DNA of 64,000 nt from Thiomonas intermedia (lineage in GTDB: Bacteria; Pseudomonadota; Gammaproteobacteria; Burkholderiales; Burkholderiaceae_C): contig NZ_CP020046.1 in assembly GCF_002028405.1 (NCBI RefSeq), positions 3,224,001 to 3,288,000 of the forward strand. Reading direction: 5' to 3'. The notes beneath the pieces were generated by a model. It was not told the DNA's origin and did no database searches. It saw only the letters and a program-made list of their open reading frames with translations. Every line of letters starts with the position of its first letter. Positions within the stretch are counted from its first letter, which is position 1. The translations under genes and the position numbers were made by a program. Shown one piece after another: positions 24,552 to 48,858 of this stretch.

Positions 24552-27500
24552 CTAGGGCAAGCGCTGCCGACGCACCCGCTCCGCCAGCCAGGCCGTGAGC
24601 GCCTTGCCCGCGGTCTTCTGTTGGGTCGGCGTCTCGGCGTGGTGCACGGCATGATGCAGCGCCCGCGCCTCGGCCGCGATCGGCCCCAGCCCCTGAAGAT
24701 AGGCTGACAGCGGGCAGTGGGCCAAGACCGTCCCCCGGTGCGGCGGATCGTCGTGCGTCTGCAGCCAGTGGTAGGCCAGTGCGCCTAGCGGGGTGGACAG
24801 TCGCGGCGAGGCTGTCTGCATCAAAGGTTCGCGGCCGGTGCCGTGCAGGATTGCCCAGGACTGAAACTCTTCCGACGGCATGGGTTTGGCAATGCCGTAG
24901 CCCTGCCCGAACTGGGCGCCGAGCTGGGTGACGGCCTCGACGATGCCCGCGTTTTCCACGCCCTCGACCACGACCTCTTTTTCGAAGTCGCGACCGATCT
25001 GCACCACGGTGCGCACCAGACTCAGGGCTTTGACCGGATCGCGCTCGATGTCCAGAATGATGCCCTGATCGACCTTGATCACGTCGAAGGGCAGGCTGGC
25101 CAGGCGCTTGAGGCTGCTGAAACCCGAGCCGAGGTCGTCGATGGCCAGGCGCACCCCCAAACGACCGAGCTTGCCGATGGCTTCATCGCGCAGGGCCTCG
25201 TCCACTTCCTGCGACTCCAGCAGCTCAAGGATCAGATGCCGCGGTGCGACTTCGTTGTCGCGCAGGGCCTGCTGAATCCACTGCACACAGTCTTCGTGCA
25301 GCAGCGTGGACGGCGGAAGGTTGAGCGAGAGGTCGACCTCAAGACCGCCGGCGCGCCACTGGGCGAGCTGTGCCAGGCTTTGCGACAGGCCCATGCGGAA
25401 CAGGGCGTCGAGATCGGCCTCGCGCAACGCGGGCAGAAACTGGCCCGGCCCGATGATCTTGCCTTCGGGAGAGACCAGACGGGCCAGCGCTTCGACCTTG
25501 TTCAGCCGCCCGCCGCGCAGCTCCACCACGGGCTGCATGAACATGCGCAGGCTCCCGGCGTAGAGCCACTGCCGGTAATGCGCGGCGTCCTGCTGGCCGA
25601 TAACCTGCTGGCGCTTGCGCAACAGATCGTCGATCAGGTTCCAGCGGTTCTGCACCGCGGTGAGAAAGGTGCGGCCCTGCTGGGTGTCGAACTGGTTGGG
25701 GTAGGCGCCGAACACCAGCATGATCGAATCGGTCTGGCCGGCCCGCTGCAGCGGAATCGCCCCCATGCTGCGCACCCCCGAGCGCGCGGCGGCGGCGGTC
25801 CAGGGTTCGAGCCCCTGGCAGTGCTCGATGGCCTTGGCGGTGACGATGGACTCGGTGCGCCACGCCTGCGCGGCCAGGCCATGGCCCGTGGGGCTGTTGA
25901 TGTCGAGCGAGGGCTGGAAATCGGGGGTCGACAGCAATCGGGTGATCGGCTCTGCGAGTTCCCCCCCGCTGGCCTGGATCACGAACAAGCCGGAAGCGCC
26001 GGGACGCAGCAGGGCGCAGCCGCGCATGCCGGGCAGATGGCCGAGTGCCCGCAGCTTGTCATCGATGACTTCGATCCACGACTGGCCCGGCCGCGGCAGG
26101 GGGCGGGCCAGGTAGGCGTTGTAGGTGTTCTGCACCACGAGCATGGCGTCGAGCTGACTCTGCAGATCGATCTGGATGCGCGCGTCGAACACGCGCTGCA
26201 GCCGGTAGCGCTCGCGCGCCGGCATGTCGCTGACGTCCAGATGCCAATGCAGCAGGTCCCGGTAAAGCTGCATCGAGGCGCTCAGCCACGAGGGCGCCAC
26301 GCCCACGAGGGCGTGCAGGTCGCCGAGAAGGCGCCCTCGCGTCTGAATCTGCTGCGCCGTGGTGGCCACGTCGAGAAGAAAGGTCAGGTGCTCGGCCTGC
26401 TTCGTCTTCAGACGGGCAATGCCGTCCGGGCCGAGCACCGTGAGGATGGCCGCGGTGTCGTCGCGGTGGCCGAGTTCGCCGTAGAACGCCTCGACAAACT
26501 CCCGCTCCGCGGTCTCGAAGAGGTTGCGGATTCTGCCCAGCAGCATCTGGGCGTCTGAACCGAAGGGGTCGAAGGGCGGTTCGATCTCGGTCTCCAGAGG
26601 TTCGCTGCCCGCCAGATACCACCATTGGGTCCGGGCGACCTTGCGCGCCTTCACGCGGTACATGGCGGCGTCGGCCAGGCGCAGCAAGGTGTCGGCGTTG
26701 TTGCCGTCCTTGGGCGCCAGGGCTACGCCCATGCTCATGCCCACGCTGGCCGTGCGGCCCTCGCCCAGGTCGAAGGGTTGTTCCAGGCCGCGCCGCAGGC
26801 GGGCGAGAATCACTTCGAGCTGCGCCTGGAGGTGATCGGCATCGAGATCTTCGATGACCACCACGAATTCGTCGCCGCCCAGGCGGGCGATCATGTCCGA
26901 ACCGCTCGCGCGTGCAAGCAGACGTTCGCCGAGCTGCTTGAGCAGCTGATCGCCCACCTCGTGGCCGTAGCGGTCGTTGACCGGCTTGAAGTCGTCGAGA
27001 TCGAGCAGACCGACGGCGACGAGGCTGCCCTCTGCCTGAGCACGCGCGATCGCCCGGTCGAGATGGTGTTCGAGCGCCCGGCGGTTGGGAAGACCGGTGA
27101 GCGGATCGGCCCGGCTGAGGCGTTCCATCTGCTGCATCAGGCGCTGACGCTCGGTCACGTCCACCACCGTCCAGACGACGAGCGTTGAATCGGCGGCGTC
27201 GGCCTCGATGCGCTTGCCCGAGATGGCGATGCAGGCGGCCCGGCCGTCGACGCGCACGATGTCGAGCGCGTCCAGATCGACCTGCCCGGCCTTGAGCGCG
27301 GTGTGCGTGGTCTTGATCATGTGGTGTTCGATCAACGAAGGAGCGACCTCGGCCATCCTCCGGCCCAGCACGTCCTGCACGTCGCTCACGCCAAAAATGC
27401 GCGCGATGGCGGCATTGGCCTCGACGATGATGGCGCCGGGATATCGCACCATGACGACCCCCGACACCGCGTTGCCCAGCAGGCTGGCGTGCTGGCGCTG

Positions 27501-28889
27501 CAGCAAGGCCTGACTCTGCAGGATGTCCAGGCGATCGATGCCGTTGGACAGGTCTTCGGCCAGATCCAGAAGGGTGCGCTGGAGATCGGGCGTGATGATT
27601 TTCGTGCCGCGGAAATAGAGGTGCAACAGGGCCCAGAGCCGTTTGCCCCGGTACAGGGGCAGGGCCGCCGCCGCACTCAGCCCATGATCCTGCATGCGGG
27701 CCTGCCAGGCGTCTGGCATGGCGGCGAACTGGGTTCCGAAGGCGAAGACCGGACGTCCCTCATTCCAGGCCAGGCCTGCGCTGCACCACTGTTCAGGGTG
27801 GGCGGAATCTGCCGTGATGATCAGATCCTTCAGGAATGGGCTGCCGGTGCCCGCATTCGCCAGGAAAACGAACCGCGCACGCTCGTCGGGGCGGCCGATC
27901 CAGGCCAGGGCGATGCCCGGATCGCGCACGAAGAGGCGGCACGTTCGCTGCAACAGATCGGCCACGTCGCTGGACTGGACAATGGCCTGATTCACATGGG
28001 CCAGGAGCGCGTTGAAGCGGGCAAAGCGCGCATTCTTCTGCAGCAGCATCTGCCGACTGCGCAACAGGCGGCCGATCACCAGCGCGGCCAGGACGAAGAG
28101 CCCGACCACGAGGCTGCGCCCGAGCAGCCGCGCGGCCAGCCCTTCGCGGTAAAGCGCCCAGACCTTGGCCGATGGCCAGCTCACCACCAGCCCCATGGGG
28201 AGGTAGCCGATCGGCTCTTCAATGCGATCGGTGCCGTCCAGGCGAAGGGCGGCGTTCCCGCCCGGCCGTGGAACGTCGAGCAGAATGTTCTCGCGATGAT
28301 CGCGCAGCGCCATGATCCAGCCGCCGCTGGACAGTCCGGTCAGCAGCGCTTCCAGGCGATAGGGCGATCCAACGTAGTAGAGGGTGCGCCCCTGCGTATC
28401 CTGCATGCGGTAGCGCATGGCGACGATGACGCTCTGATAGCGAGGGGCGAAGCGCGCTTTGCCGAGCAGGTCGGTGGGGCGGCTGGGCATGGGCGTGAAG
28501 TCCTGCGCGTGGAAGATCGGCCTGTCGGTCTGCGGATGGTTGGACCAGGCAATGTGCCGGGCATCGGCCGAGAGGATATTGATGGCCAGCAGCTCCGGGT
28601 GTTCGCCCGCATAGCGCTGGAGAGTCTGCCGTGTACGGTCGTCGAGGGCTTCGGGGTCTTGGCCGCCGACGATGGCATTGGCGACAAACCCGAGCTGCTG
28701 GAACTGCTGCATCAGCCTCAGCTGGATCAGCTGACCCTCCGCCAGTGCGGCGTGACGGGCGCGCTCGCGCACGCGCTCTTTCGCATGCAGGTAGTCGAGG
28801 CGCTCCTGATTGACAAACCAGATCACCGATAGGGCGACGGGCAGCCACAGCAGCCCCTGCAGGAAAACGCGACGCAGCGACGGTTTCAT
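24552..28889 (-). CDS. Multi-sensor diguanylate cyclase/phosphodiesterase (GGDEF-EAL) with globin-like segment
   Basis: The protein has 1445 residues from MKPSLRRVFL. Order: TM helix (10-27), periplasmic sensor (30-245), TM helix (255-275), GAF-like (295-450), PAS-like (455-580), GGDEF (595-760, with LGGDEF at 670-675), globin-like segment (785-925), second GAF-like (940-1095), EAL (1105-1350) and a tail. GGDEF is intact. EAL residues are intact: E1133-A-L, N1190, E1222, D1251-D1252, K1272, E1309 and Q1329. The globin-like segment has FYGEL and LGDLHALVGVAPSW, whose H859 would be the haem ligand. It should make and/or break c-di-GMP in response to several signals. An earlier in-frame ATG (28919) is less likely. 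Confidence 0.9.
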   Translation of the reverse strand: MKPSLRRVFLQGLLWLPVALSVIWFVNQERLDYLHAKERVRERARHAALAEGQLIQLRLMQQFQQLGFVANAIVGGQDPEALDDRTRQTLQRYAGEHPELLAINILSADARHIAWSNHPQTDRPIFHAQDFTPMPSRPTDLLGKARFAPRYQSVIVAMRYRMQDTQGRTLYYVGSPYRLEALLTGLSSGGWIMALRDHRENILLDVPRPGGNAALRLDGTDRIEEPIGYLPMGLVVSWPSAKVWALYREGLAARLLGRSLVVGLFVLAALVIGRLLRSRQMLLQKNARFARFNALLAHVNQAIVQSSDVADLLQRTCRLFVRDPGIALAWIGRPDERARFVFLANAGTGSPFLKDLIITADSAHPEQWCSAGLAWNEGRPVFAFGTQFAAMPDAWQARMQDHGLSAAAALPLYRGKRLWALLHLYFRGTKIITPDLQRTLLDLAEDLSNGIDRLDILQSQALLQRQHASLLGNAVSGVVMVRYPGAIIVEANAAIARIFGVSDVQDVLGRRMAEVAPSLIEHHMIKTTHTALKAGQVDLDALDIVRVDGRAACIAISGKRIEADAADSTLVVWTVVDVTERQRLMQQMERLSRADPLTGLPNRRALEHHLDRAIARAQAEGSLVAVGLLDLDDFKPVNDRYGHEVGDQLLKQLGERLLARASGSDMIARLGGDEFVVVIEDLDADHLQAQLEVILARLRRGLEQPFDLGEGRTASVGMSMGVALAPKDGNNADTLLRLADAAMYRVKARKVARTQWWYLAGSEPLETEIEPPFDPFGSDAQMLLGRIRNLFETAEREFVEAFYGELGHRDDTAAILTVLGPDGIARLKTKQAEHLTFLLDVATTAQQIQTRGRLLGDLHALVGVAPSWLSASMQLYRDLLHWHLDVSDMPARERYRLQRVFDARIQIDLQSQLDAMLVVQNTYNAYLARPLPRPGQSWIEVIDDKLRALGHLPGMRGCALLRPGASGLFVIQASGGELAEPITRLLSTPDFQPSLDINSPTGHGLAAQAWRTESIVTAKAIEHCQGLEPWTAAAARSGVRSMGAIPLQRAGQTDSIMLVFGAYPNQFDTQQGRTFLTAVQNRWNLIDDLLRKRQQVIGQQDAAHYRQWLYAGSLRMFMQPVVELRGGRLNKVEALARLVSPEGKIIGPGQFLPALREADLDALFRMGLSQSLAQLAQWRAGGLEVDLSLNLPPSTLLHEDCVQWIQQALRDNEVAPRHLILELLESQEVDEALRDEAIGKLGRLGVRLAIDDLGSGFSSLKRLASLPFDVIKVDQGIILDIERDPVKALSLVRTVVQIGRDFEKEVVVEGVENAGIVEAVTQLGAQFGQGYGIAKPMPSEEFQSWAILHGTGREPLMQTASPRLSTPLGALAYHWLQTHDDPPHRGTVLAHCPLSAYLQGLGPIAAEARALHHAVHHAETPTQQKTAGKALTAWLAERVRRQRLP

Positions 28890-29129
28890 CGTTCCGTCCC
28901 GCGCGGCGCGGAGTGGCATCGTCGATGCGGCCGGGCGGCGTTGAACTTCGGGCGAAACGTGCGTTCGGAAAGAAAAGGACCAGTTGGAGACCAGGGCATT
29001 GCAGCGGTGTCCGGTACGGTGCCGGAGCCAGTCGGTAAGCAGGGCGGGAAGTGCGGAAGGGAGGGAAGTGCGACGGAGACTTTGTAAAGTCGGCCTAGCA
29101 ATTTAGCAAGCCGGAGATGTCGCTAATGA

Positions 29130-29216
29130 GGCGCTTTCGTGACAAATTCCCGGATCGGCTCATCCGCTCCAGCCGCGGTGCCGCCGCGCCATCGCGGGAA
29201 TTTGTTCAGCGTCGCC
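29130..29216. repeat. Inverted repeat directly after the HemK-like gene
   Basis: An 11-bp perfect inverted repeat (ACAAATTCCCG at 29142-29152, CGGGAATTTGT at 29195-29205) lies inside longer imperfect arms of about 26 bp that both begin GGCG at the outer ends. The right arm touches the HemK-like stop codon. Apart from this element, the 327-bp gap 28890-29216 shows no gene; it must hold the promoter of the GGDEF-EAL gene. It may be an mRNA-end hairpin or a miniature mobile element. Confidence 0.55.
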
Positions 29217-30176
29217 TTAGACAGCCCTGGCGAGAATGGCGCGCACGGCGCCCTGGGCATCGGCGATGGTTTCCACCCGGTCGTAAGCCGGGCTTTTCTC
29301 CAGAAGCTGGGTCATGGCGGGGCCTTGCCCCAGGCCGACTTCCATGCCCAGCCAGCCCCCCGGACGCAGCAGGGGCGGGGCTTCGCGGATGAGGCGCATG
29401 AGAATGCGCACGCCGAAAGGCCCGCCATCGAAGGCGAGATGGGGCTCATGCCCCACGATCTCCTGCGGCATGGTGTCCATCTTGGCGGTGGAAATGTAGG
29501 GTGGCAGCGAAACCAGCAGATCCACCTTGCGATGAAAGTCGTCGCCGAACGGGGCGAGCAGATCGCCGGTGTGCAACTGGACCCGCTCGCTCAGGCCCAG
29601 TTGGCGGGTGTTGGCCACGGCCAGGTCGATGGCGGTTGGGGAGATGTCTGCGCCATGCACCAGCGCCTTGGGCACGGCATGAGCCAGTGCCAGCGCGAGA
29701 TTGCCCGAGCCGCAGCACACATCGATGGCCAGGGGCGGCGTTGGCCGACTGGCCGCGACATCGCGCAGCTTCTCGATGGCGGCGCGGGCCAGCATTTCGC
29801 TCTCGGCGCGGGGGATCAGCGCCTCGGGCGAAGCCAGGAGTTCGAGTCCCATGAAGTGTTGGCGGCCGGTCAGGTATGCGATGGGCTCCCCGGCGATGCG
29901 CCGCGCGATCAGTGCGTCGAGGGCGCCGAGCTGCCGGGCGTCGAGCACAGGCAGCGCGGTCTCGCGGGCGGCATGGAGCGACAGCGGCTGCCCCGCGGCC
30001 AGCAGCCAGAGGGCGCGCAGGGCTGAGGCCGGTGTCTCTTCGGGCTTGTCAGGCAGGATGTCGAGCGCCTGAGTCAGACGCGCCAGGCGTTGCGCAAAGG
30101 CGGTCTGGCCGTGGGACCCAAGCGCCAGCAGATCGGCCTGGTCGAGTGCGGAGGCATCATCGGGACGGGTATTCAA
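29217..30176 (-). CDS. HemK/PrmC-like class I SAM-dependent methyltransferase with altered NPPY motif
   Basis: The 319-residue protein follows the PrmC plan: an N-terminal helical domain with YLTGRQHFMGLELLASPEAL, an SAM motif IDVCCGSGNLALALAH (151-166) and the ADIS strand end. The catalytic NPPY of N-methyltransferases is SLPPY here (223-227), so the Asn that holds the target amide is a Leu. It starts with TTG, overlapping the NadE-like stop (TTGA), after GGAG seven bases upstream. Release-factor methylation is therefore doubtful. It is the last gene of the acyl-ligase/ACP/NadE-like run and may methylate that pathway's product. Confidence 0.8.
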   Translation of the reverse strand: MNTRPDDASALDQADLLALGSHGQTAFAQRLARLTQALDILPDKPEETPASALRALWLLAAGQPLSLHAARETALPVLDARQLGALDALIARRIAGEPIAYLTGRQHFMGLELLASPEALIPRAESEMLARAAIEKLRDVAASRPTPPLAIDVCCGSGNLALALAHAVPKALVHGADISPTAIDLAVANTRQLGLSERVQLHTGDLLAPFGDDFHRKVDLLVSLPPYISTAKMDTMPQEIVGHEPHLAFDGGPFGVRILMRLIREAPPLLRPGGWLGMEVGLGQGPAMTQLLEKSPAYDRVETIADAQGAVRAILARAV

Positions 30177-31168
30177 GCGTCATCTCCGGAGGTGGGGAAG
30201 ACCGGCTCGACCAGCGCCGGCCGGGCATGCAGATAGCGGGTGCTGCGCCGCTTGGCGTCGATATCGCCCAGAACCGCGGCAGCGGCCTGCGGCGTGGTGC
30301 CGAGCGCCTGGGCAAGCTCGGTATCGCCGTAGCCGTGGTTGCGCGCCCAGAGCGCCAGGTCCATCTGGTGCCAGGGCAGGGCGAAATAGAACTCGTCCTG
30401 ACCCTGCGGCAGGCTGTAGGTGTCGGTGGTTGGCGCCGCACTGCATACGGCGTCGGGCAGACCGAGGTGGCGGGCGAGCGCGTAGACCTGGGTCTTGTAG
30501 AGGTGGGCGATGGGTTTGAGGTCGGCGGAGCCGTCGCCGTTCTTCACAAAAAACCCCTGGTCGTATTCCAACCGGTTGGGCGTGCCGATGACGGCGTAAT
30601 TCAGGCGGTCGGCGTGGAAGTATTCAAGGGTCTTGCGCAGGCGCTGCTTGTGGTTGGTCGCCGCGACGATCTGCAGGTAGGCGCGCAGCGGCAGCCGGGT
30701 TTCGGACAGGACGCCGTCGGGCGCCTGGGCGATGAGCTTGAAGTGATTGATGCCGCCGGCCAGTCCGCCCGAGATCGCGAGCTTGATTTTCCACTGCGGG
30801 GTGTAGGCGGGCAGTACCGTGCGCACCGCCTCGTCGCGCCAGCGGTAGCAGCCGATGGCGTCCAGGGCGGGGGCGATGTCTTCCACGGCGTATTCAATGC
30901 CCAGCTGCTGCGCGACTTGTGCCCCCAGGCTGGCGCTGGCGTGCGAGGAGTCGCGCTCGGGCATGAGCAGGCCGAACACGCGCTGCGGCCCAAGGGCCCG
31001 CACTGCCAGCGCAGCGCACACCGAGCTGTCGACGCCTCCCGAGAGGCCGAGCACCACGCCCCGCTTGTTCAGGCCGCGCAGGGTGTGGAGGAAGAACTCG
31101 CCGATGCGCGCGGTCTCGGCCTCGCCGTCGAGCGCGAGGACATCGGTATTGAGTGCGGGGCGCGACAT
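30173..31168 (-). CDS. NadE-like ATP-dependent amide synthetase (NAD+ synthetase family)
   Basis: From MSRPALNTDV the protein is 331 residues, longer than stand-alone ammonia-dependent NadE (about 275). The ATP-pyrophosphatase P-loop SGGVDSS is at 43-49 and the nicotinate-site-like VKNGDGSADLKPIAHLYKTQV at 208-228. It has an extra stretch at about 110-165 and a PTTDTYSLPQGQDEF motif (246-260) where NadE has a gQtDE/lG pattern. It lacks the glutaminase domain. It starts 8 bp after the ACP stop. It could be the cell's NAD synthetase, but the company of ACP and acyl ligase suggests amidation of a carrier-bound or released acid. Confidence 0.8.
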   Translation of the reverse strand: MSRPALNTDVLALDGEAETARIGEFFLHTLRGLNKRGVVLGLSGGVDSSVCAALAVRALGPQRVFGLLMPERDSSHASASLGAQVAQQLGIEYAVEDIAPALDAIGCYRWRDEAVRTVLPAYTPQWKIKLAISGGLAGGINHFKLIAQAPDGVLSETRLPLRAYLQIVAATNHKQRLRKTLEYFHADRLNYAVIGTPNRLEYDQGFFVKNGDGSADLKPIAHLYKTQVYALARHLGLPDAVCSAAPTTDTYSLPQGQDEFYFALPWHQMDLALWARNHGYGDTELAQALGTTPQAAAAVLGDIDAKRRSTRYLHARPALVEPVFPTSGDDA

Positions 31169-31175
31169 GGCGGCC

Positions 31176-31427
31176 TCAGGCGGCCTGCTTGCGCTGCACA
31201 TAGGCCGCGATGGCAGCCACGCTGTCGAGGTTCTCCGGCACCATCTCGATGTCGGCGACCTGGATGCCCCAGGTTTCCTCCAGGAAGAGGATGAGTTCGA
31301 GCACGCCGGTGGAGTCGAGGATGTGCAGATCCAGCAGGGAATCGGTATCGCCGTAGGCGGTGTCGCGCGCACCGAGCAGGAAGTTGCTGTCGATGTAATC
31401 GCGGATCTTTTGGTGCATGTCAGCCAT
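31176..31427 (-). CDS. Acyl carrier protein
   Basis: This 83-residue acidic helical protein has the phosphopantetheine site DSTGVLELI with Ser39 as the probable attachment point (ILDSTG). Length and spacing are those of stand-alone carrier proteins, but the DSTG motif differs from the DSLD of fatty-acid AcpP, so it is a dedicated carrier. A TGGAAAGGAAACC leader provides a plausible ribosome site. It lies between an AMP-forming acyl ligase and a NadE-like synthetase, all in the same direction and closely spaced. Confidence 0.9.
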   Translation of the reverse strand: MADMHQKIRDYIDSNFLLGARDTAYGDTDSLLDLHILDSTGVLELILFLEETWGIQVADIEMVPENLDSVAAIAAYVQRKQAA

Positions 31428-31472
31428 GGAAAGGAAACCTCGGTGAGGGGAAGGACGGATGGGCGCGCGGCA

Positions 31473-33020
31473 TCAGCGCAATCCCGTTTTCTTGATTTTT
31501 CCGGTATCGGTGCGAGGCAGGGCATCGACGAATTCGACGTACTTCGGCGCCATGAAGTTCTCGATGTGGGCCAGGCAATGTTTGATGACGTCGCGTTCGG
31601 TCAGGCTCACGCCTGGTTTGCAGACCACGAAGGCCTTCACGGCCTGGCCGAGCAGCGGGTCGTCCACGCCGATGACGGCAGCTTCGAGCACGCCGCCCAG
31701 CGCATGCAGCACATTTTCGACTTCGCGCGGGCTGACTTTTTCGCCCCGGCTCTTGATGATGTCGTCGCGTCTGGCCACGAAATACAGCCAGCCTTCGTCA
31801 TCGGTGCGGAACAGATCGCCCGAATACAGCACCGTCTCGCCGGGGATCGGCCCCGGGCGCAGGCGCTGCTCGGTCTGCTGCGGCTTGCGCCAGTAGCCGC
31901 GCATCACATGGCTGCCCCGGATGACCAGCTCGCCCGTGGAACCCCAGGGCAGGCGGCGCCCCTCGTCATCGACCAGCCAGACTTCCTCGTTGGGCATGCC
32001 GCGCCCCACGCTGCCGGGCCGCAGGTCGAGCTGTTCGGGGGGCAGGTAGGTGACGCGCTTGCACTCGGTCAGTCCGTACATGGAGAACAGCGTGGCTTGC
32101 GGAAACAGCGCGCGGATCTGCGCAATCTGCGTCTGTGGCAGCGCTGCGGCGGTGTTGGTGATCAGCCGCAGCGCGGAAAGGTCGAACTCGCTCAAGGCCT
32201 TGAGATTGGTCAGCAGGGTGAACATGGTGGGCACACCGGCGAAGACGGTGGCCCGCTCCTGCGCCATAGTCGCCAGCACCTTTACTGGGAAGGTGAACGA
32301 GCGCTCCAGCAGCACGGTGGCGCCCAGGCTGAAAGCCATCAGCACCTGATAGAGCCCGTAATCGAAAGCCAGCGGCAGGGCGCAGACGATGAGGTCATCC
32401 TGCCGCAGGCCCAGATAGCCGCGCACCGAGCGCAGCGCGGTGAGCATGTTCAGGTGGGTGAGCATCACGCCCTTGGCATCGCCGGTGGAGCCCGAGGTGT
32501 AAATGATGGCGGCCAGGTCCTGGTCGATCAGATCGGGATGCGTGGGCGAGCAGGGCGCCTGGCTCACGGCTGAAGGAAAGGGGCGTTCGCGCGCATCCGG
32601 GGCGCCTTCGTCGGGCTTGCCCAGCGCGTAGGCCGTCAGCATGTAGCAATGACGGACACTGCCGTTCTGCGCCAGTGCCGCGCGGCTGGTTTCGGCCAGT
32701 TCCTGCTGCGTGAGCAGGGCGCTGGCTTCGGAGTCGTTGAGGATGTAGGCCAGCTTGTCGGCCTTGGTCAAGGTGTTGACCGGCATGAACACGGCGCCGA
32801 TTTTGAGCACGGCATACATTGCCGCGATCATTTCCACGCAGTTGTCGAGAAACAGCGCCACCCGTTCGCCGCGCTGCACTCCGTCGGCACGAAGCGCGGC
32901 GGCGATGCCTTCCACGCGGTCCGCCAGATCGGCGTAGCGGGTCGCCACTCCCTCGCGCACGACCGCACGATGTTCCGCATGGGAGGTGACCGTCGTCTCG
33001 AAGGTGTGGTGAAGGAGCAT
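31473..33020 (-). CDS. AMP-forming acyl-CoA/acyl-ACP ligase
   Basis: From MLLHHTFETT the protein is 515 residues, an ANL-superfamily adenylating enzyme. Core motif A3 is YTSGSTGDAKG (174-184), A5 is SMYGLTECKR, A7 is YSGDLFRTDDEGW and A8 is RRDDIIKSRGEKVSP; the C-terminal Lys is in RTDTGKIKK. ATGs at 33029 and 33053 are alternatives; none has a clear ribosome site. It resembles ligases found with carrier proteins in exosortase-associated and other small clusters. Here it probably loads an acid onto the ACP encoded 45 bp downstream. Confidence 0.88.
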   Translation of the reverse strand: MLLHHTFETTVTSHAEHRAVVREGVATRYADLADRVEGIAAALRADGVQRGERVALFLDNCVEMIAAMYAVLKIGAVFMPVNTLTKADKLAYILNDSEASALLTQQELAETSRAALAQNGSVRHCYMLTAYALGKPDEGAPDARERPFPSAVSQAPCSPTHPDLIDQDLAAIIYTSGSTGDAKGVMLTHLNMLTALRSVRGYLGLRQDDLIVCALPLAFDYGLYQVLMAFSLGATVLLERSFTFPVKVLATMAQERATVFAGVPTMFTLLTNLKALSEFDLSALRLITNTAAALPQTQIAQIRALFPQATLFSMYGLTECKRVTYLPPEQLDLRPGSVGRGMPNEEVWLVDDEGRRLPWGSTGELVIRGSHVMRGYWRKPQQTEQRLRPGPIPGETVLYSGDLFRTDDEGWLYFVARRDDIIKSRGEKVSPREVENVLHALGGVLEAAVIGVDDPLLGQAVKAFVVCKPGVSLTERDVIKHCLAHIENFMAPKYVEFVDALPRTDTGKIKKTGLR

Positions 33021-33167
33021 GGGCGGCATGGAGCAGGTGGAGGTTGCGAGCATACGAGCGGTGCTGGCGGTTTCAGCCCCCCGTCCACACAAGGAAAGCG
33101 CAACTGTGTGACTTATTTGGAGCCGCGCCGCCGCTATCCTTGACCTTTCAAAATTCAGGATGCGGGT

Positions 33168-33938
33168 ATGGGACTGGGGCTTTACATCATCGGCGACGAA
33201 ATCCTCTCCGGAAAACGTCAGGACAAACATTTTCCCCACCTGCTCGGTTTGCTCAGGGCGAGGCAGATGCGTGTGGACTGGGTGCAATATTTGGGGGACG
33301 ACCCCGCGCAGCTGGCGGCATCGTTTGCCGCCAGTTTCCAGCGCGGCGACGTGGCGCTGAGCTGTGGCGGCATCGGCGCCACGCCGGACGATCACACCCG
33401 GCAAAGTGTCGCTGCCGCCCTGGGCGTGCCTCTGGCTCTGCACCCCGATGCGAAGGAACTGATCCAGCAACGCATTGTGGAGGCGGGACTGGGCGACCTG
33501 GACTCTCCCGCCAATCAGCAGCGCCTGCAAATGGGGTGTTTTCCCCAGGGCAGCGCCATCATTCCCAACCCGTACAACAAGATTCCGGGTTTTTCCATCC
33601 GCCAGCACTACTTCGTACCGGGATTTCCGGTCATGGCCTGGCCGATGCTCGAATGGGCGCTGGATGGCCCGCTTGCTGACCTTCATGGACAAGGCCATCA
33701 GGTCGAGCAGGCGGTCATCGTCCGCAAGGCGATGGAGTCCGATCTGACGCCACTCATGGAAGACATCGAGCACCGATACCCAGGGGTGAAAGTCTTCAGT
33801 CTGCCCAGCGTGGATCATCCGGTCTGGGGCCGTCATATCGAACTGGGCGTCAAGGGCGAGGCCATGGGGGTTGAGGCCGCATTCGTTTATTTGTGTGCAC
33901 ACTTGCCAGCGGGCAGTTGGGAGTACGCACCGAAATGA
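33168..33938 (+). CDS. MoCF-domain protein (CinA/MoaB-like, molybdopterin-binding fold)
   Basis: The 256-residue protein starts MGLGLYIIGDEILSGKRQDKH and has SCGGIGATPDDHT (around residues 65-78), the MoCF_biosynth signature shared by MoaB/MogA and CinA. It lacks the C-terminal amidase domain of full CinA. Relatives of this length are called competence/damage-inducible protein A, but a role in competence is not implied. It diverges from the acyl-ligase operon and precedes the glnA control region. Confidence 0.85.
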   Translation: MGLGLYIIGDEILSGKRQDKHFPHLLGLLRARQMRVDWVQYLGDDPAQLAASFAASFQRGDVALSCGGIGATPDDHTRQSVAAALGVPLALHPDAKELIQQRIVEAGLGDLDSPANQQRLQMGCFPQGSAIIPNPYNKIPGFSIRQHYFVPGFPVMAWPMLEWALDGPLADLHGQGHQVEQAVIVRKAMESDLTPLMEDIEHRYPGVKVFSLPSVDHPVWGRHIELGVKGEAMGVEAAFVYLCAHLPAGSWEYAPK

Positions 33939-34186: not shown

Positions 34187-35602
34187 ATGAGCAAAACAGT
34201 CGCCGACGTGATGGGCATGGTGAAAGAGCACGACGTCAAATTCGTGGATTTCCGTTTCACCGACACCCGCGGCAAAGAGCAACACGTTTCGGTGCCGGTG
34301 TCCCATTTCGATGAAGACAAATTCACCGACGGCCATGCTTTCGACGGTTCCTCCATCGCCGGCTGGAAAGGCATCGAAGCCTCGGACATGCTGCTCATGC
34401 CCGATCCCAACACCGCCAATATCGATCCGTTCTACGAAGAAACCACGCTGCTGCTGAGCTGCGACGTGCTCGAGCCGGGTGATGGCAAACCTTACGACCG
34501 CGATCCGCGTTCCATCGCGAAGAAGGCCGAGGCCTACCTCAAGGCTTCCGGCATCGGTGATACGGCCTACTTTGGTCCGGAACCCGAGTTCTTCATCTTC
34601 GATCAGGTCCGCTGGAACGTCGACATGTCCGGCTGTTTCGTCAAGGTCGATTCCAACGAAGCCGCATGGGCTACCGGTGACAAGATGGAAGGTGGCAACA
34701 TGGGCCACCGTCCCTCGGTGAAGGGTGGCTACTTCCCGGTGCCCCCGGTCGACAGCCTGCAGGACATCCGCTCGGAAATGTGCCTGCTGCTCGAACAAAT
34801 GGGCGTGCCGGTCGAAGTGCATCACCACGAAGTGGCCAATGCCGGCCAGTGCGAAATCGGCACCCGGTTCTCCACCCTGGTGCAGCGCGCCGACTGGACG
34901 CAGGTCCTCAAGTACGTGGTGCAGAATGTCTCGCACGCCTACGGCAAGACGGCGACCTTCATGCCCAAACCCATCGTCGGCGACAACGGTTCGGGCATGC
35001 ATGTGCACCAGTCGATCTGGAAAGACGGCAAGAACCTGTTTGCGGGCAATGGCTATGCCGGGCTGAGCGAATTCGCGCTGTACTACATCGGCGGCATCAT
35101 CAAGCACGCCCGCGCGCTCAACGCCATCACCAACCCGGGCACCAACTCCTACAAGCGTCTGGTGCCTGGCTTTGAGGCTCCGGTGATGCTGGCTTACTCC
35201 GCCCGCAATCGTTCGGCGTCCATCCGCGTGCCGTTCGTGCAGAGCGACAAGGCCCGCCGCATCGAAGTGCGCTTCCCCGATCCCACGGCCAATCCGTACC
35301 TGGCCTTCTCCGCCATGATGATGGCCGGCCTGGACGGCGTGGAAAACAAGATTCACCCGGGCGAAGCCGCGAGCAAGAACCTGTACGACCTGCCGCCCGA
35401 AGAAGAGGCCAAGATCCCGACCGTCTGCTCCAGCCTCGACCAGGCGCTGGACTATCTGGACAAGGACCGCGCCTTCCTGACCAAGGGCGGCGTCTTCAGC
35501 GACGACTTCATCAGCGCCTACATCGATCTGAAGATGGAAGAGGTCACGCGTTTCCGCATGACCACCCATCCGGTCGAGTTCGAGATGTACTACTCGCTGT
35601 AA
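34187..35602 (+). CDS. glnA: Glutamine synthetase type I
   Basis: The 471-residue enzyme starts after TAGGAGATTTTC. It contains the N-terminal loop [21 protein letters not shown], the metal/glutamate site [10 protein letters not shown], the ATP motif [16 protein letters not shown] and the adenylylation tyrosine (about Tyr400) in NLYDLPPEE. It fixes ammonia into glutamine. Activity should be tuned by adenylylation through the PII/GlnD cascade (glnD is at 54226-56844). Transcription is likely NtrC/sigma-54 dependent from the sites upstream, and a strong terminator follows. Confidence 0.98.
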
Positions 35603-35618
35603 AGCGGCATGGTTTTCA

Positions 35619-35646
35619 AGAGCGGCCTGCGGGCCGCTCTTTTTTT
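35619..35646 (+). terminator. Rho-independent terminator after glnA
   Basis: A nine-base perfect stem (AGAGCGGCC with GGCCGCTCT) with a four-base loop is followed by seven or more T residues. This is a strong intrinsic terminator and suggests that ntrBC are expressed mostly from another promoter or by read-through. Confidence 0.92.
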
Positions 35647-35735
35647 GGCAATTCCGCCACGGCCTGTCGGCCGGTCCTGTGGCGGATGCGTTGCCAGACT
35701 TACACTGACCGCTGATCTCTTGACCCTGGCGCACC

Positions 35736-36290
35736 ATGACACCGTTTGTCCGTCTGACCGTTCGATATGCAGCGTTTGCCGTGTTTGCAGCCGTGGCGGG
35801 CGCCTCTGCCGCCCTGGCGCAGACTGACCCGCAGCGGGTCTATCGCTGCCCCGACAATTCCTACACCAATGATCTCTCCGAGGTGAAAGAGAAGAACTGC
35901 AAGCTCATCGACAACGCCAATGTGAGCATCCTGTCCAGCCCGATGGTGGCACCCAAGGCGGCGGGCTCGGGCGGACGGAGCGAGGATCAGAAGGCCGGTT
36001 CCAATGTGAACCAGGCCGCGCGGGTCGCGCCCTCCACCCAGAAAGAGCGCGATGCCGAGGCGCGGCGCATTCTGGAGCAGGAGTTGCAACAGCAACAGGC
36101 CCGCCTGGAGCAGCAGTCCAAGGCCTACAACAATGGCCAGCCCGATTACCTGCCCAGTGAGCGGATCGTGGGGGGCGGGGTCAAAGGCGGTGAGTATGCC
36201 CAGCGCGTGGCCGCCATGAAAGACCAGATCGCCATGACGCAGGCCAATATTGCCGCCCTGCAGCGCGAATTGCTGAAGTACCCGCAATGA
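35736..36290 (+). CDS. Exported DUF4124-type protein
   Basis: The 184-residue protein has a signal peptide ending ALA before QTDPQRVYRC, followed by the DUF4124-like YRCPDNSYTND pattern with two cysteines. The C-terminal half is Gln-rich and probably coiled coil (about residues 100-125). It should be periplasmic; no biochemical role is known. Its stop overlaps the ntrB ATG by 4 bp (ATGA), so it is translationally tied to the nitrogen sensor kinase, an unexplained association. Confidence 0.8.
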   Translation: MTPFVRLTVRYAAFAVFAAVAGASAALAQTDPQRVYRCPDNSYTNDLSEVKEKNCKLIDNANVSILSSPMVAPKAAGSGGRSEDQKAGSNVNQAARVAPSTQKERDAEARRILEQELQQQQARLEQQSKAYNNGQPDYLPSERIVGGGVKGGEYAQRVAAMKDQIAMTQANIAALQRELLKYPQ

Positions 36291-37372
36291 ACGACGGCAA
36301 GGCCGGTCTGCCGAGCGTACCCGAGTATCTCGGCCTGGAATGGCTGGCCTCCATGGCGGCCCTGGTGGATGACGGCGGTTTGATTTGCTACGCCAACCCG
36401 GCGATCGAGAACGGGCTGGGCGTCTCCCGCCGGCTGTTGAAGGAGCAGAACCTGGGTCAGTGGATGGATTGCCCGGTCCTCTGGCAGGAGTCTCTGCTCC
36501 AGGTGCGCAGCAACGCATTCAGCAGCATGCGCTTTGATTGCATGATGCGGCTGCGAGATTTGCGCGATGCGGTGCAAGTCCAGGTCATCGTGGCGCGCAC
36601 CGATCATCCGCAGGGGCTGCTGCTGGTCGAGGTGGTCGAGATCAGCCAGCAGTCACGGCTGGAGCGTGAGGAGCAGTGGCACAACCAGGCGCAGGCGAAC
36701 AAGGAACTGATCCGCAACCTGGCGCACGAGATCAAGAATCCTTTGGGCGGCATTCGGGGCGCCGCGCAACTGCTGCACGCCGAGCTGCCCTCGGCAGACT
36801 TGCAGGAGTACACCCAGGTCATCATCGCTGAAGCTGATCGTCTGCAAACCCTGGTGGATAGGCTGCTGGCGCCGCATCGCAAACCGCATGTCGTGGGCGA
36901 TGTGAACATCCACGAAGTGTGTGAGCATGTACGCACCCTGCTGCAGGCCGAGTTTCCGCAGGGACTGGCCATCGAACAGGACTACGACGCCAGTCTGCCC
37001 GAGTTTCGCGGCGACAAGGAGCAACTCATTCAGGCGGTGCTCAACATCGCTCACAATGCAGCGCAGGCGCTGCAGGCGCGCATCGCCCAGGGCGACGCGC
37101 ACATCGTCATCCGGACCCGGGTGGCGCGGCAGATGACGGTGGCCCGTCAGCGCTACAAGCTGGCACTGGTCTTGCATATCGTGGACAACGGCCCCGGGGT
37201 GCCTGCGGAACTGAAGGACCGCATCTTTTTTCCGCTGATCTCGGGCCGCGAAGGAGGTAGTGGACTGGGGCTCACCCTGGCCCAGACCTTCGTCCAGCAA
37301 CATCAGGGAACCATCGAATGCGACAGCCAGCCCGGCCATACCGAATTCCGCATCACCATACCGCTGCCTTGA
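36287..37372 (+). CDS. glnL: Nitrogen regulation sensor histidine kinase NtrB
   Basis: The 361-residue cytosolic kinase has an N-terminal PAS-like domain (about 12-120), a phosphoacceptor segment NLAHEIKNPLGGIRGAAQ with H147 and an ATPase domain with the N box NIAHNAAQAL, DNGPGVP and GGSGLGLTLA. No membrane segments are present, as expected for NtrB, which responds to PII. It phosphorylates NtrC, encoded 31 bp downstream. Confidence 0.95.
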   Translation: MNDGKAGLPSVPEYLGLEWLASMAALVDDGGLICYANPAIENGLGVSRRLLKEQNLGQWMDCPVLWQESLLQVRSNAFSSMRFDCMMRLRDLRDAVQVQVIVARTDHPQGLLLVEVVEISQQSRLEREEQWHNQAQANKELIRNLAHEIKNPLGGIRGAAQLLHAELPSADLQEYTQVIIAEADRLQTLVDRLLAPHRKPHVVGDVNIHEVCEHVRTLLQAEFPQGLAIEQDYDASLPEFRGDKEQLIQAVLNIAHNAAQALQARIAQGDAHIVIRTRVARQMTVARQRYKLALVLHIVDNGPGVPAELKDRIFFPLISGREGGSGLGLTLAQTFVQQHQGTIECDSQPGHTEFRITIPLP

Positions 37373-37403
37373 GCGCATGGCTTACGCCGCAGGGGAGCTC
37401 GCG

Positions 37404-38876
37404 ATGAAGCCGATCTGGGTTGTCGATGACGATGCGTCGATCCGCTTCGTGCTGGAGAAGGCGCTGCAGAAGGCCGGCATGGAAGTGCGCAGCTTTTCCA
37501 ATCCGCGCGACGTGCTGAGCGCCTTGGCCGAATCCTGCCCGCAGGTGCTCGTCAGCGACATTCGCATGCCCGGTGGCAACGGCATCGACCTGCTGCAGCA
37601 GATCCGCCAGTCTCATCCGGGCCTGCCCGTGATCATCATGACGGCCTACTCCGACCTCGACAGCGCGGTGGCGTCGCTGCAAGGCGGCGCCTTCGACTAC
37701 CTCAGCAAACCCTTCGACGTGGAGAAGGCCGTCGAACTGATCCAGCGGGCCGTCGATGAAAGTCTGCGTGAGGAGCTGGCCGACGAGGCGCACAACGAAG
37801 CTCCCGAGCTCCTCGGCCAGGCTCCGGCCATGCAGGATGTGTTCCGCGCGATCGGGCGGCTGGCGCATTCTCAGGTCACCGTGCTGATCACCGGCGAATC
37901 CGGCTCGGGCAAGGAACTCGTCGCCCGCGCCCTGCACAAGCACAGCCCTCGCTCCGGCGGGCCGTTTGTCGCCATCAACACCGCGGCGATTCCCAAGGAT
38001 CTACTGGAAAGCGAGCTGTTCGGTCACGAGCGCGGCGCCTTTACCGGCGCGCAGACCATGCGGCGCGGCCGCTTCGAGCAGGCCGAAGGCGGCACGCTCT
38101 TCCTCGATGAAATCGGCGACATGCCGCTGGAACTGCAGACCCGGCTGCTGCGCGTGCTGTCCGATGGCCACTATTACCGCGTGGGCGGGCACAGCGCGAT
38201 CAAGGCGCACGTACGCGTGATAGCCGCCACGCACCAGAACCTCGAGCAGCGCGTGGCGCAGGGTCAGTTCCGCGAGGATCTGTTCCACCGTCTCAACGTC
38301 ATCCGTCTGCGTCTTCCGCCCCTGCGCGAGCGCAGCGAAGACATCGCGCCGCTCACCAAGCATTTCCTGCAGCGCAGCGCCCAGGAACTTGGCGTCGAGG
38401 CCAAGCGGATTTCTGCCGAAGCTCTGCGAGTGCTGCAGCAGTTTCCATTCCCCGGCAACGTCCGGCAGTTGGAGAATCTGTGTCAGTGGCTGACCGTCAT
38501 GGCTCCCGCACAGACGATTCAGGTCAAGGATCTGCCCGATGAACTCCGGCCTGGCACACTTTCGGCTGAAGTCCCTTTGAACGCCACGGCCGCGGCGCCT
38601 GTGGCAGCTTCTGCGGCATCGTCCGATGCGCCTGCTGTTGTCGCGGCGCAGACGTTCCAGGACGACTGGGAGCGCAATGTGGAGCAGGTGGCCTTGAGCC
38701 TGATTCGCAGCGGCGAGCCCGACGTCATGCACCATCTCACCCAGCGCTTCGAGCGAGCGCTGATCACCGCTGCGCTGACGCAGACTCATGGGCGGCGCAT
38801 CGAAGCCGCGCAGAAACTGGGCATCGGGCGCAACACCATCACGCGCAAGATCCAGGAACTCGGGATGGAAGACTAG
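37404..38876 (+). CDS. glnG: Nitrogen regulation response regulator NtrC
   Basis: The 490-residue protein has a receiver domain with D52 in [11 protein letters not shown], a sigma-54 AAA+ domain with Walker A GESGSGKE, the GAFTGA loop and [15 protein letters not shown], and a C-terminal Fis-type helix-turn-helix ([20 protein letters not shown]). I used ATG 37404 because AGGGGAG precedes it; an ATG nine codons upstream is possible. Phosphorylated NtrC would activate the glnA sigma-54 promoter at 34068. Confidence 0.96.
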
Positions 38877-46475: not shown

Positions 46476-46539
46476 AACGGGCATTCTAAGGCGGTGTCGG
46501 CTACGGCCAAACAGGGCTGCCGCACGGCTAACATGTGAG

Positions 46540-46752
46540 GCGTTGGTGCCCGCGCGGTGGTTCACGCCGCGCAGTTAAACGGGAAACAGGAAGAGACATG
46601 CCTGCGGCAAATGCTCCAGCCTGTGCTGCCCCCGCAACGGTCAGCGACCGAAGGCTCTGCCTTCCGTTCGGACGCTTCATCCACTGAATCCACGGGTTTG
46701 GGAAGGATGTCCGGATCGCGTCGCCAGCCCGGATACCGGCCAACGACGAGAG
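46540..46752 (+). ncRNA. Cobalamin (AdoCbl) riboswitch
   Basis: All main landmarks are present in order: TTGGTGCC at 46543, the TTAAACGGGAAACAGG block near 46575, GCTGCCCCCGCAACGGT near 46625, the B12 box part CCACTG at 46681, GGGAAGG near 46700 and GCCAGCCCGGATACCGGCC near 46723. It lies ahead of a TonB receptor and B12-type transport genes, and binding would switch them off when B12 is plentiful. The 162 bp from 46753 to the receptor start hold the expression platform. The short stretch 46476-46540 must hold divergent promoters; I see no strong boxes. Confidence 0.95.
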
Positions 46753-46914
46753 GACGCGCAGCTTCGGGGTGACGTGGCGCATCAAGACCTCGGTGGTGTC
46801 CATCGCATCGCCACACGACGGTCGAGATGCGTTCGGAGGTCTGGAGCTGCTCGCCTCAGCCGCGCTTGCCGTGCGGGGGAACACGGCAGCGCTCATTCAT
46901 CCGGAAATCGAGCC

Positions 46915-48858
46915 ATGTCTCAGCAGTTCACGCACAACGGCGTCCGTACGTCGTACCGCAGATCCCACGCGTCGGCGCTTTCTTGCGCGGCCATCAAACC
47001 CGTTGCACGCGCCACATGCGTCGTTGCGCTCGGGCTCACCGCCCTCCACGCCCAGGCACAGAGTGCCCCGGCGGAGGCCACCGCTTTGCCCCCCGTGGTG
47101 GTGTCCGCGACGGGTTATCCGCAGCCGCTGGCGAGTGCCCTGCCCAGTGTCAGCGTCATCACCCGCGAGCAGATCGAGCAAAGCGGCGCACAGAATCTGG
47201 TGACACTGCTGCAGCAGGTTGCGGGAGTCCAGGTGACCAACAGTGGCGGCCCGGGGCAACCCAGCAATGTGTTCGTACGCGGATTCGGTGGCGCCGACGT
47301 CCTGGTGCTGCTCGACGGCGTGCCCATGAATGCCCAGGACGCCACGGGCACGTCGTATCTCAACAACTTCACCACCGATCAGATCCAGCGCGTGGAGATC
47401 ATCCGCGGCAATGTGTCGGCCATCTACGGCTCCGGTGCGATTGGCGGTGTAGTGCTCATCACCACCCGCAAGGGCAGCAAAAAGCCTGAAGCGTCGGTTT
47501 CGGTAACGGCGGGCAGTCGCCATACGGCCACGGTCTCGGCCAACGCCAGCGGGCAGATCGGCAACACGGCGCTGCAGGCCGGCATCAGCCGCTCGACCAC
47601 GCAAGGCATCAGCGCCATCAATCCCGCGCAGCTCAGCCAGGCCAACCCGAACACCAACGGCTATGGCAACACGACGATGAACGGCTCCATCGTGCAGACG
47701 CTGGCGCCTGGGCAATCGCTGGGCTTGCGCGCCTTCAGCAGCCAGGGCCGCGCCAGCTACGACAGCTATGGGGCCTATGCCAGCCCGACCGACACCAATC
47801 TGAGCAGCACCACGCAGGACCTCTACCAGATCTTCAGCGACAACCAGGTGACCTCGGCCTGGAAGTCGCATGTCAGCGTGTCACAGCAGAGCACGACCAA
47901 CACCACCGAGAATTTCAGCGCCTTTCCCTACAGTGCGACCTACCGCACGCGGATCGAGCAAGGGCTCTGGCGCAACGTGATGCAGCTGGGGGCGGGCTGG
48001 ACGGCCACGGCCGGGCTGGAGTTTCAGCGCCAATCCGTGCATTCGATCACCGCCTCCATCCCCGACGAGCAGCGCGACGCCAGGGCCGTGTTCGCGGGGG
48101 TGAATGGCCGCATCGGCAGCAACGAGATCCAGCTCAATCTGCGGCACGATGCGATCGACGGCTATGGCGGCCAGAACACCGGCTATCTGGGCTATGGGCG
48201 CGAACTGGGCGGTGGCTTCAAGGCGATTGCCAGCTACTCGACGGCCTTCAATGCCGCGCCTTTGGGCTACCTCTACGCTCCGTTCTATGGCAATCCGGAT
48301 CTGAAACCCGAAAAGGCGCATTCGGCAGAGGCCGGCCTGCAGTGGTCGCAAGGAGTGAATGTGCTGCGCGCCACGCTGTTCCAGACCAAGATGACCGACA
48401 AATGGCAGTACGACTTCACCTCCAGCACCTTCCAGAACATCGCCAGCAGCAGCACCCGCGGGCTGGAGTTGAGCGGACGCGGCGCCTGGAGGGGCTGGGT
48501 TTACGACGCCAACCTCACCTTGCAGCAACCCGTGGATACCAGCCAGCCCGATGAGCCGACCCTGCAGCGCCAGGCCCGCAGCCTGGCGAACATCTCGATC
48601 AGCCGAGCGTTCGCGTCGGTGCTCTATGGCGCGACCGTGCATTACAGTGGCCCCAGATGGGACAGCGGCCCGACGGGACAGGTGACTCTGGGCGGCTACA
48701 CCACGGTCGATCTCAACGCCAGCGGTGCGCTGTCGAAAAACTGGCGCTGGAATGCGAGGGTGCAGAACCTGTTCGACAAGCAGTACCAGACCGTCTATGG
48801 CTACAACCGGGAACCGCTGGGGATTTTTCTCGGCCTGACCTGGCGGCCCGCGCTCTGA
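46915..48858 (+). CDS. btuB: TonB-dependent outer-membrane receptor, BtuB-like
   Basis: From MSQQFTHNGV the precursor is 647 residues with a long signal region (hydrophobic stretch ending HAQAQ). The plug domain begins PPVVVSATGYPQPLASALP and includes QQVAGVQVTNSG and FVRGFGGADVLVLLDGVP; a 22-strand barrel ends with the typical aromatic C-terminus LGLTWRPAL. The cobalamin riboswitch upstream makes vitamin B12 or another corrinoid the likely ligand. The open frame upstream of 46915 overlaps leader sequence and has no receptor similarity. Confidence 0.93.
   Translation: MSQQFTHNGVRTSYRRSHASALSCAAIKPVARATCVVALGLTALHAQAQSAPAEATALPPVVVSATGYPQPLASALPSVSVITREQIEQSGAQNLVTLLQQVAGVQVTNSGGPGQPSNVFVRGFGGADVLVLLDGVPMNAQDATGTSYLNNFTTDQIQRVEIIRGNVSAIYGSGAIGGVVLITTRKGSKKPEASVSVTAGSRHTATVSANASGQIGNTALQAGISRSTTQGISAINPAQLSQANPNTNGYGNTTMNGSIVQTLAPGQSLGLRAFSSQGRASYDSYGAYASPTDTNLSSTTQDLYQIFSDNQVTSAWKSHVSVSQQSTTNTTENFSAFPYSATYRTRIEQGLWRNVMQLGAGWTATAGLEFQRQSVHSITASIPDEQRDARAVFAGVNGRIGSNEIQLNLRHDAIDGYGGQNTGYLGYGRELGGGFKAIASYSTAFNAAPLGYLYAPFYGNPDLKPEKAHSAEAGLQWSQGVNVLRATLFQTKMTDKWQYDFTSSTFQNIASSSTRGLELSGRGAWRGWVYDANLTLQQPVDTSQPDEPTLQRQARSLANISISRAFASVLYGATVHYSGPRWDSGPTGQVTLGGYTTVDLNASGALSKNWRWNARVQNLFDKQYQTVYGYNREPLGIFLGLTWRPAL

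Follow-up and report, generated by a model that had tools for sequence, protein, structure and literature searches.

A conserved operon of ligase, carrier-protein, NadE-like and HemK-like genes in Thiomonas intermedia and its possible role in acyl tailoring

The four-gene operon

The window considered here, a stretch of 64,000 nucleotides (C1:3224001-3288000) from the 3.34 Mb genome of Thiomonas intermedia, contains on its minus strand, at positions 29217-33020, an operon encoding an AMP-forming ligase, an acyl carrier protein (ACP), a NadE-like protein and a HemK-like protein, in that order. All four open reading frames (ORFs) were confirmed in the window, and the row of four genes and the four families named in a preliminary description of this DNA agree with the ORFs and the family matches, those of the ACP being below cut-off. 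The ligase and ACP genes are 45 bp apart, the ACP and NadE-like genes 7 bp, and the NadE-like and HemK-like genes overlap by 4 bp; the first value had been given correctly, and the other two had been put at 8 bp and a 3-bp overlap. The genes are as follows.

31473..33020, minus strand: ligase (LIG), AMP-forming, acyl or aminoacyl type, 515 aa, with Pfam AMP-binding and C-terminal domains
31176..31427, minus strand: dedicated ACP, 83 aa, DSTG motif with Ser39, weak NCBIfam carrier-protein matches
30173..31168, minus strand: NadE-like N-type ATP pyrophosphatase without a glutaminase domain, 331 aa, NF002048
29217..30176, minus strand: HemK/PrmC-like methyltransferase, 319 aa, TTG start, TIGR03534, with a CCGSGN S-adenosylmethionine (SAM) motif

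A full-text literature search, in which bioRxiv preprints were absent and subscription papers few, found no description of this gene set. The combination of NadE-like and HemK-like genes with a ligase, an ACP and an AsnB-type amidotransferase is thus undescribed as far as the literature was searched, as had been proposed, and the component families are known.

Conservation of the gene set

Three sets of loci were used for the counts below. The first consists of 85 loci chosen by similarity to the NadE-like protein: the best 80 of 572 relatives from a scan of named genomes, together with the window, L053, L055, L056 and L064. Genes were counted in it by a hidden Markov model search on trimmed hits, and L052, L054 and L057-L063 were left out as lying on the same contigs as L065-L073. 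The second comes from a class-wide draw of 369 genomes. The NadE-like family was present over its cut-off in 17 of these, one being the window's own genome, and the locus counts cover the 16 loci other than the window's; a partial match under the cut-off (G196/L217) was left out, and draw loci L202 and L206 are probably identical to L108 and L109 of the 85-locus set. The third, a control, comprises 16 canonical NadE loci of draw genomes, in stretches of 6.5-17.7 kb that were scanned in the same way.

In the 85-locus set, a ligase and an ACP were each found in 79 loci, AsnB in 58, a HemK-like gene in 33 and a GNAT-like gene in 30. All four window genes occur together in 32 loci; of the 33 loci with HemK, 21 preserve the exact gene order of the window and 12 have a different order or strand. 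The draw loci have an ACP in 16/16, AsnB in 14/16, a ligase in 13/16, a HemK-like gene in 2/16 and a GNAT-like gene in 1/16, and none of the 16 control loci has any module gene. The operon genes are therefore a conserved unit and more than a chance neighbourhood; that they might not be kept together elsewhere, a possibility raised in the preliminary description, is contradicted by their joint recurrence in many loci. The further idea that the four genes form a pathway holds to the extent that they are a conserved unit, but they are not the whole module, which also includes AsnB and, at some loci, a GNAT-like gene. The parts of the module are thus AsnB, the ACP, the ligase and the NadE-like protein, often with a GNAT-like protein and, in one subtype, with a HemK-like protein.

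Among the relatives searched, a full-length match to the NadE-like protein was found in 13/13 genomes of the genus (the window's own included), in 1/23 other genomes of the family and in 0/24 of the order. No plasmid copies of the window DNA were found by megablast. At the protein level, 116 plasmid records contain a NadE-like relative, all with less than 60% identity (50.8-58.5% among the matches listed), and 76 of these records are from Sinorhizobium. The module is patchy in its distribution and probably mobile.

AsnB and GNAT-like partners

None of the 13 window-like loci has AsnB or a GNAT-like gene within its stretch. In the window's genome, both are found 258 kb from the operon, as an adjoining pair:

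C1:2993584-2995500: AsnB, adjoining the GNAT-like gene
C1:2992508-2993560: GNAT-like (tandem-GNAT-like), adjoining AsnB

AsnB is present in all 13 Thiomonas genomes, shortened in three, and is 70-73% identical to the AsnB of the T. delicata module. With AsnB and the GNAT-like gene at a separate second locus, the Thiomonas module is split over two loci, of which the operon is the larger part. The earlier remark that no glutaminase is visible is accurate locally, but not for the genus, in which the AsnB at the second locus has a glutaminase domain. AsnB-type amidotransferases of the module score 502-508 bits against the asparagine-synthase model and remain below the cut-offs of both curated models compared, with 439-449 of 817 bits for the XrtA amidotransferase TIGR03108 (438.8 of 816.9 for the partner AsnB of L168) and 353-375 of 570 bits for TIGR03104. 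The GNAT-like gene is not a fixed part of the module in gammaproteobacteria.

The NadE-like protein

The NadE-like protein matches the 'NAD(+) synthase' subfamily NF002048 with 481.6 bits (cut-off 313), and its predicted structure (pLDDT 90.3) has as its best Foldseek match the NadE structure 2e18, with a TM-score of 0.65 by query and 0.83 by target. The SGGxDS loop of ATP pyrophosphatases, here SGGVDS, is kept in all 50 aligned rows (S43, G44, G45, D47 and S48). On the acceptor side, the basic residue two positions before the P-[ST]-A motif, which is kept in 2e18, 3fiu, 3p52 and the genome's own NadE, is lost: the position is Ala in 43 rows, Ser in three, Thr in two, and Val and Gln in one each. 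The model also predicts three strands at residues 127-159, a region skipped by the NadE alignments.

The name given by NCBI, the SGGVDS loop and the NadE fold are all what an ordinary NAD synthetase would have, and the gene order would then be coincidence. Against this, there is a separate NadE in the genome, the acceptor-side motif is altered, and an ACP gene is the neighbour at 16/16 draw loci and at 0/16 canonical NadE loci, so that we regard an ordinary synthetase as extremely unlikely. A role as the sole NAD synthetase, which the preliminary description had named as fatal to its proposal, is ruled out by the full glutamine-type NadE at C1:2860946-2862622. Among the 17 genomes with the NadE-like family, a glutamine-type NadE over cut-off is present in 16, and the 17th has a 213-bit match. 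Judged from these sequences, the NadE-like family has diverged from housekeeping NadE, and a family annotated as NAD synthase, on pSymB of S. meliloti among others, is very probably something else.

The HemK-like protein

The HemK-like protein barely passes the cut-off of the PrmC model TIGR03534 (203.0 bits, cut-off 199.1). Its predicted structure (pLDDT 90.8) is closest in fold to PrmC (2b3t), and its Foldseek alignment with E. coli PrmC shows 28% identity. An N-terminal PDKPEETP segment is common to the beta- and gammaproteobacterial relatives. In a quick tree, the HemK-like set has a support of 96 and the PrmC rows lie across a branch with a support of 98; the genome's single PrmB row joins the HemK-like side, on a long branch. 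The genome encodes a PrmC directly beside prfA as well as PrmB, both apart from the operon, and a plain PrmC is ruled out for the HemK-like gene by this prfA-linked PrmC and by its own clade.

The 33 HemK-like copies of the 85-locus set have NPPY (14), APPY (8) or LPPY (11), the last being the Thiomonas group. In PrmC-type enzymes, NPPY binds the amide that is to be methylated. According to one study (PMC6796863), the NPPY motif of HemK holds the glutamine of release factor RF1, and a hydrogen bond would activate its amino group; another (PMC8904536) describes a change of NPPY in HEMK1 that is predicted to be inactivating. A pseudogene, considered because of LPPY, was rejected: dN/dS is 0.12-0.32 in seven pairwise comparisons, and the other conserved columns of the family are kept. 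These values are in each comparison above those of the ligase and the NadE-like gene, and they indicate purifying selection, and hence that the Thiomonas gene is in use. Judging by the motif, the Thiomonas protein is perhaps not an amide N-methyltransferase.

It is possible to see in the HemK-like gene a spare methyltransferase for release factors or ribosomal proteins that lies in the operon by chance. A margin of 4 bits over the PrmC cut-off, the PrmC-like fold, the position of PrmB in the tree and a relative in G266, a genome without a NadE-like gene, would fit such a role. The genome is already provided with a prfA-linked PrmC and with PrmB, the HemK-like proteins form their own clade, LPPY or APPY is found in 19/33 copies, and an Asp-type ligase (see below) accompanies the gene at every module locus. 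Moreover, matches above 400 bits occur in only three genomes of the draw (G000, G246 and G360), all with a NadE-like gene. We consider a spare methyltransferase very unlikely; the PrmC-like family of the module is very probably not the release-factor PrmC of its annotation.

The ligase, the carrier protein and the pairing with HemK

The best-scoring curated model for the ligase is the XrtA-associated ligase TIGR03098, with 459.3 of 592.35 bits and thus below cut-off. Its closest solved structures are adenylation (A) domains of peptide synthetases, followed by malonyl-CoA synthetase. Asp220 of the ligase (codon 32361-32363) aligns with the FD motif of A domains, at the A4 position, where an Asp holds the amino group of the amino-acid substrate in peptide synthetases. 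For the Asp-type ligases that accompany HemK, the acid used is probably one that bears an amine, such as an amino acid. The DSTG site reported for the ACP is present, with a phosphopantetheine-type Ser39 (codon 31311-31313); D38 and S39 are invariant in 35/35 aligned rows. No Pfam family matched the ACP at E <= 0.01, and its NCBIfam matches are all carrier proteins, none reaching its cut-off.

The residue at the ligase position and the presence of HemK are paired. A table of the nearest ligase covers 78 loci, that is, the 85-locus set minus six loci without a ligase and L119, at a contig end: Asp occurs together with HemK in 33, a different residue without HemK in 45, and none is discordant. 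On the tree of the NadE-like proteins, the ligase residue and HemK each change six times, and the changes coincide. The 13 draw loci with a ligase comprise two with Asp and HemK, ten with another residue and no HemK, and one with Asp and no HemK (L216).

The third group in which the pairing was observed consists of alphaproteobacterial plasmid loci, for which 13 stretches were taken from the 116 plasmid records and 12 were counted; L238, whose ligase is of Asp type and whose 8-kb flank shows no HemK, was left out. Seven have Asp and HemK and five have Gly and no HemK. The 12 loci are not independent, as five are from Sinorhizobium/Ensifer, two of these from S. meliloti, and the five loci without HemK were read with flanks of 10-12 kb, so that a HemK farther out could escape; in S. 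meliloti, the HemK-like gene is 11.6 kb from the NadE-like gene. For L241, the ligase used is the one with 679 bits, a weaker match of 192 bits lying nearer to the NadE-like gene.

A HemK-like gene is accompanied by an Asp-type ligase in 42/42 module loci. The rule is one-way: HemK is always found with Asp, and Asp is found with HemK in most loci. The HemK-like gene is thus an optional part of the module that is tied to one type of ligase, and the pairing provides a handle on the acid loaded by the ligase and on the target of HemK. At L093 and L203, an Asp-type and a Ser-type ligase share a common ACP and NadE-like gene, with no HemK.

Glycan neighbourhood and alphaproteobacterial copies

Genes of exopolysaccharide (EPS) type, sought by using seven proteins of XrtA-type clusters as seeds, adjoin 10/16 draw loci, 28/85 loci of the first set and 0/16 control loci, and many gammaproteobacterial copies of the module lie in exopolysaccharide clusters. 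The conservation of the module extends across classes. The order asnB-acp-ligase-nadE recurs on alphaproteobacterial plasmids of Sinorhizobium, Ensifer, Mesorhizobium, Shinella, Rhizobium and Nitratireductor, with a different gene order in Mesorhizobium AR07 and in Azospirillum. In 10 of the 12 alphaproteobacterial loci, a protein aligns with the GNAT-like protein by profile (hhalign probability 98). On pSymB of S. meliloti 1021 (L247, 1435000-1460000), asnB-acp-ligase-nadE and a GNAT-hemK pair are about 10 kb apart, and the pair adjoins a gene annotated as lipopolysaccharide biosynthesis; the NadE-like gene is at about 1450585-1451568 of NC_003078 and the HemK-like gene at about 1438305-1438973. 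In Shinella, glycosyltransferases adjoin two loci and a flippase adjoins one.

These neighbours bear on whether the module instead yields a free small molecule (an amide, a dipeptide-like osmolyte or a signal) that is released from the ACP, the EPS neighbourhood being secondary. No glycan-assembly genes were seen at either Thiomonas locus or immediately next to asnB-acp-ligase-nadE in S. meliloti, and none of the 13 Thiomonas genomes gave an exosortase match in a search that had no positive control; both would suit a free product. The EPS-type genes at 10/16 and 28/85 loci, the glycosyltransferases and flippase of Shinella and the lipopolysaccharide-annotated neighbour of the S. meliloti pair argue against a free product, as does the fact that no thioesterase was recognised, though no profile search was aimed at thioesterases. 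A free product seems to us rather unlikely.

By eye, the ACP and NadE-like genes of L214 (G271:C56, 1-10045) adjoin sugar-nucleotide genes and nonulosonic-acid genes of NeuB/NeuC type, and this stretch contains neither a ligase nor AsnB. The locus is of interest for a further alternative, in which the NadE-like protein acts after transfer and converts an N-acyl amide to an amidine, in the style of acetamidino sugars, and the HemK-like protein N-methylates the amidine. N-type ATP pyrophosphatases are able to activate both amide and carboxyl oxygen, and legionaminic acid carries N-methylated acetimidoyl groups, both of which speak for this chemistry together with the neighbours of L214. That locus is just one among the 16 and lacks a nearby ligase, and the NCBIfam matches of the NadE-like protein and of the Thiomonas AsnB include no WbuX/PseA-like (acetamidino-type) model. 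An amidine route is, on balance, improbable.

Proposed function

Our tentative interpretation, to which we would give not quite an even chance, is that the gene set is a dedicated acyl-ACP tailoring module by which an acyl group, amidated and perhaps also N-methylated, is attached to an amine on a surface glycan. The ligase would adenylate an acid and load it onto the ACP. The NadE-like protein and AsnB, with ATP and ammonia or glutamine, would put nitrogen on the carboxyl or carbonyl of the product, and the HemK-like protein would modify the acid selected by an Asp-type ligase. Transfer of the acyl group off the ACP would fall to the GNAT-like protein or, where the module lacks one, to a different transferase; the acceptor would be an amine, with a surface-polysaccharide amino sugar as its likeliest site. 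We infer every chemical step, the order of the steps, the substrate acid and the acceptor from the gene content and its neighbourhood.

Several observations weigh against this interpretation. No EPS genes were seen beside the module at the Thiomonas loci, and the exosortase search of the 13 Thiomonas genomes was empty, as it was, over cut-off, for 14 control genomes; the link to a glycan therefore comes from other organisms. At L207, L209 and L214 of the draw, an ACP and a NadE-like gene are present and no ligase is nearby. The GNAT label is weak, in that PF13527 is under its gathering score for the Thiomonas protein and two other GNAT-like proteins have no Pfam match, and the single GNAT-like gene of the draw loci is that of L206. 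For the pairing, there are just three independent pairs on well-supported branches, all agreeing (sign test, p 0.25). Asp-type ligases without a nearby HemK occur at L216, where the contig ends 916 bp away, and at L119, also at a contig end, and additional Asp-type second ligases without HemK occur at L093, L143, L086 and L203. In the window's HemK-like protein, LPPY replaces NPPY (Leu224, codon 29505-29507), which makes amide methylation uncertain in the Thiomonas group. Finally, G266, which has no NadE-like gene over cut-off, encodes a HemK-like protein with NPPY that scores 271-272 bits (L200, C28, 3381-4157); its contig, of 4.8 kb, has no ligase. As this score is close to those of the alphaproteobacterial HemK-like proteins (249-265 bits), the protein may be genuinely related without being part of the module.

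The HemK family is known mainly from protein modification, and a bolder form of the proposal would be a new carrier-bound chemistry, with AsnB- and NadE-type enzymes acting on one ACP, HemK modifying the acyl group on the carrier or on the glycan when the ligase has chosen an amine-bearing acid, and the Thiomonas HemK needing no NPPY Asn. Surface glycans of bacteria would then carry an acyl substituent of a new kind, both amidated and N-methylated; we regard this as doubtful. Because S. meliloti 1021, a standard laboratory strain, carries the module, the tailoring reaction, probably of surface glycans, is open to genetic test.

Surroundings of the operon

By eye, the divergent upstream neighbour of the operon is a gene of molybdopterin-binding type, and the nearby region 34187-38876 of the window contains glnA, a short ORF and genes resembling ntrB and ntrC. 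A glnA-type neighbour was called in 11 loci, every one window-like. After the HemK-like gene, at 24552-28919, there is a gene for a 1455-aa protein with GGDEF and EAL parts by eye, a relative of which likewise follows the HemK-like gene at L065. No promoter was found in a scan of 28800-33400; the same region has five terminator-like sites where 2.5 would be expected, including a minus-strand site within the NadE-like gene. The sole match in an Rfam scan is a cobalamin riboswitch far from the operon (46527-46758, plus strand, 75 bits), which precedes a long ORF at 46774-48858.

Comparison with known systems

The module is a variant of carrier-protein-based tailoring and not a categorically new system. 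It resembles the XrtA/PEP-CTERM EPS clusters in its AMP ligase and AsnB families (TIGR03098 and TIGR03108) and, in many gammaproteobacterial loci, in a similar neighbourhood. However, its ligase and AsnB score well under the curated cut-offs, it adds the NadE-like and the optional HemK-like genes, and Thiomonas lacks an exosortase match in the search without positive control. An amide is also made by an AsnB-type amidotransferase in the pathway for N-acetylglutaminylglutamine amide (NAGGN, TIGR03104), which is found in rhizobia as well and is not known to use an ACP or a ligase; the AsnB of the module, by comparison, is below the TIGR03104 cut-off.

The NadE-like protein shares with NadE (the NF002048 / PRK00876 subfamily, as annotated) the fold, the loop and most of the GT.NR.E...GDG motif, but differs in the absent basic residue, the extra predicted strands, the ACP neighbour and the presence of a second NadE-type gene in 17/17 genomes. 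Similarly, the HemK-like protein has the fold and SAM site of the PrmC/HemK glutamine methyltransferases and is set apart from them by its own clade, its N-terminal segment, its operon and the LPPY or APPY of the Thiomonas group and a small number of other members. It has a weak sequence match (E 8e-9) to 23lq, the title of which refers to apramycin biosynthesis, and fold matches to the carbamoyl N-methyltransferase Asc-Orf2 and to PsiM, all three far less similar than PrmC. The fold is one already used on small molecules; we know of no carrier protein in the reactions of 23lq, Asc-Orf2 or PsiM. The ligase is most like the A domains of peptide synthetases and DltA-DltC-like loading, in its closest structures and in the aligned Asp of the HemK subtype, but it is a stand-alone protein and no condensation domain was recognised with it.

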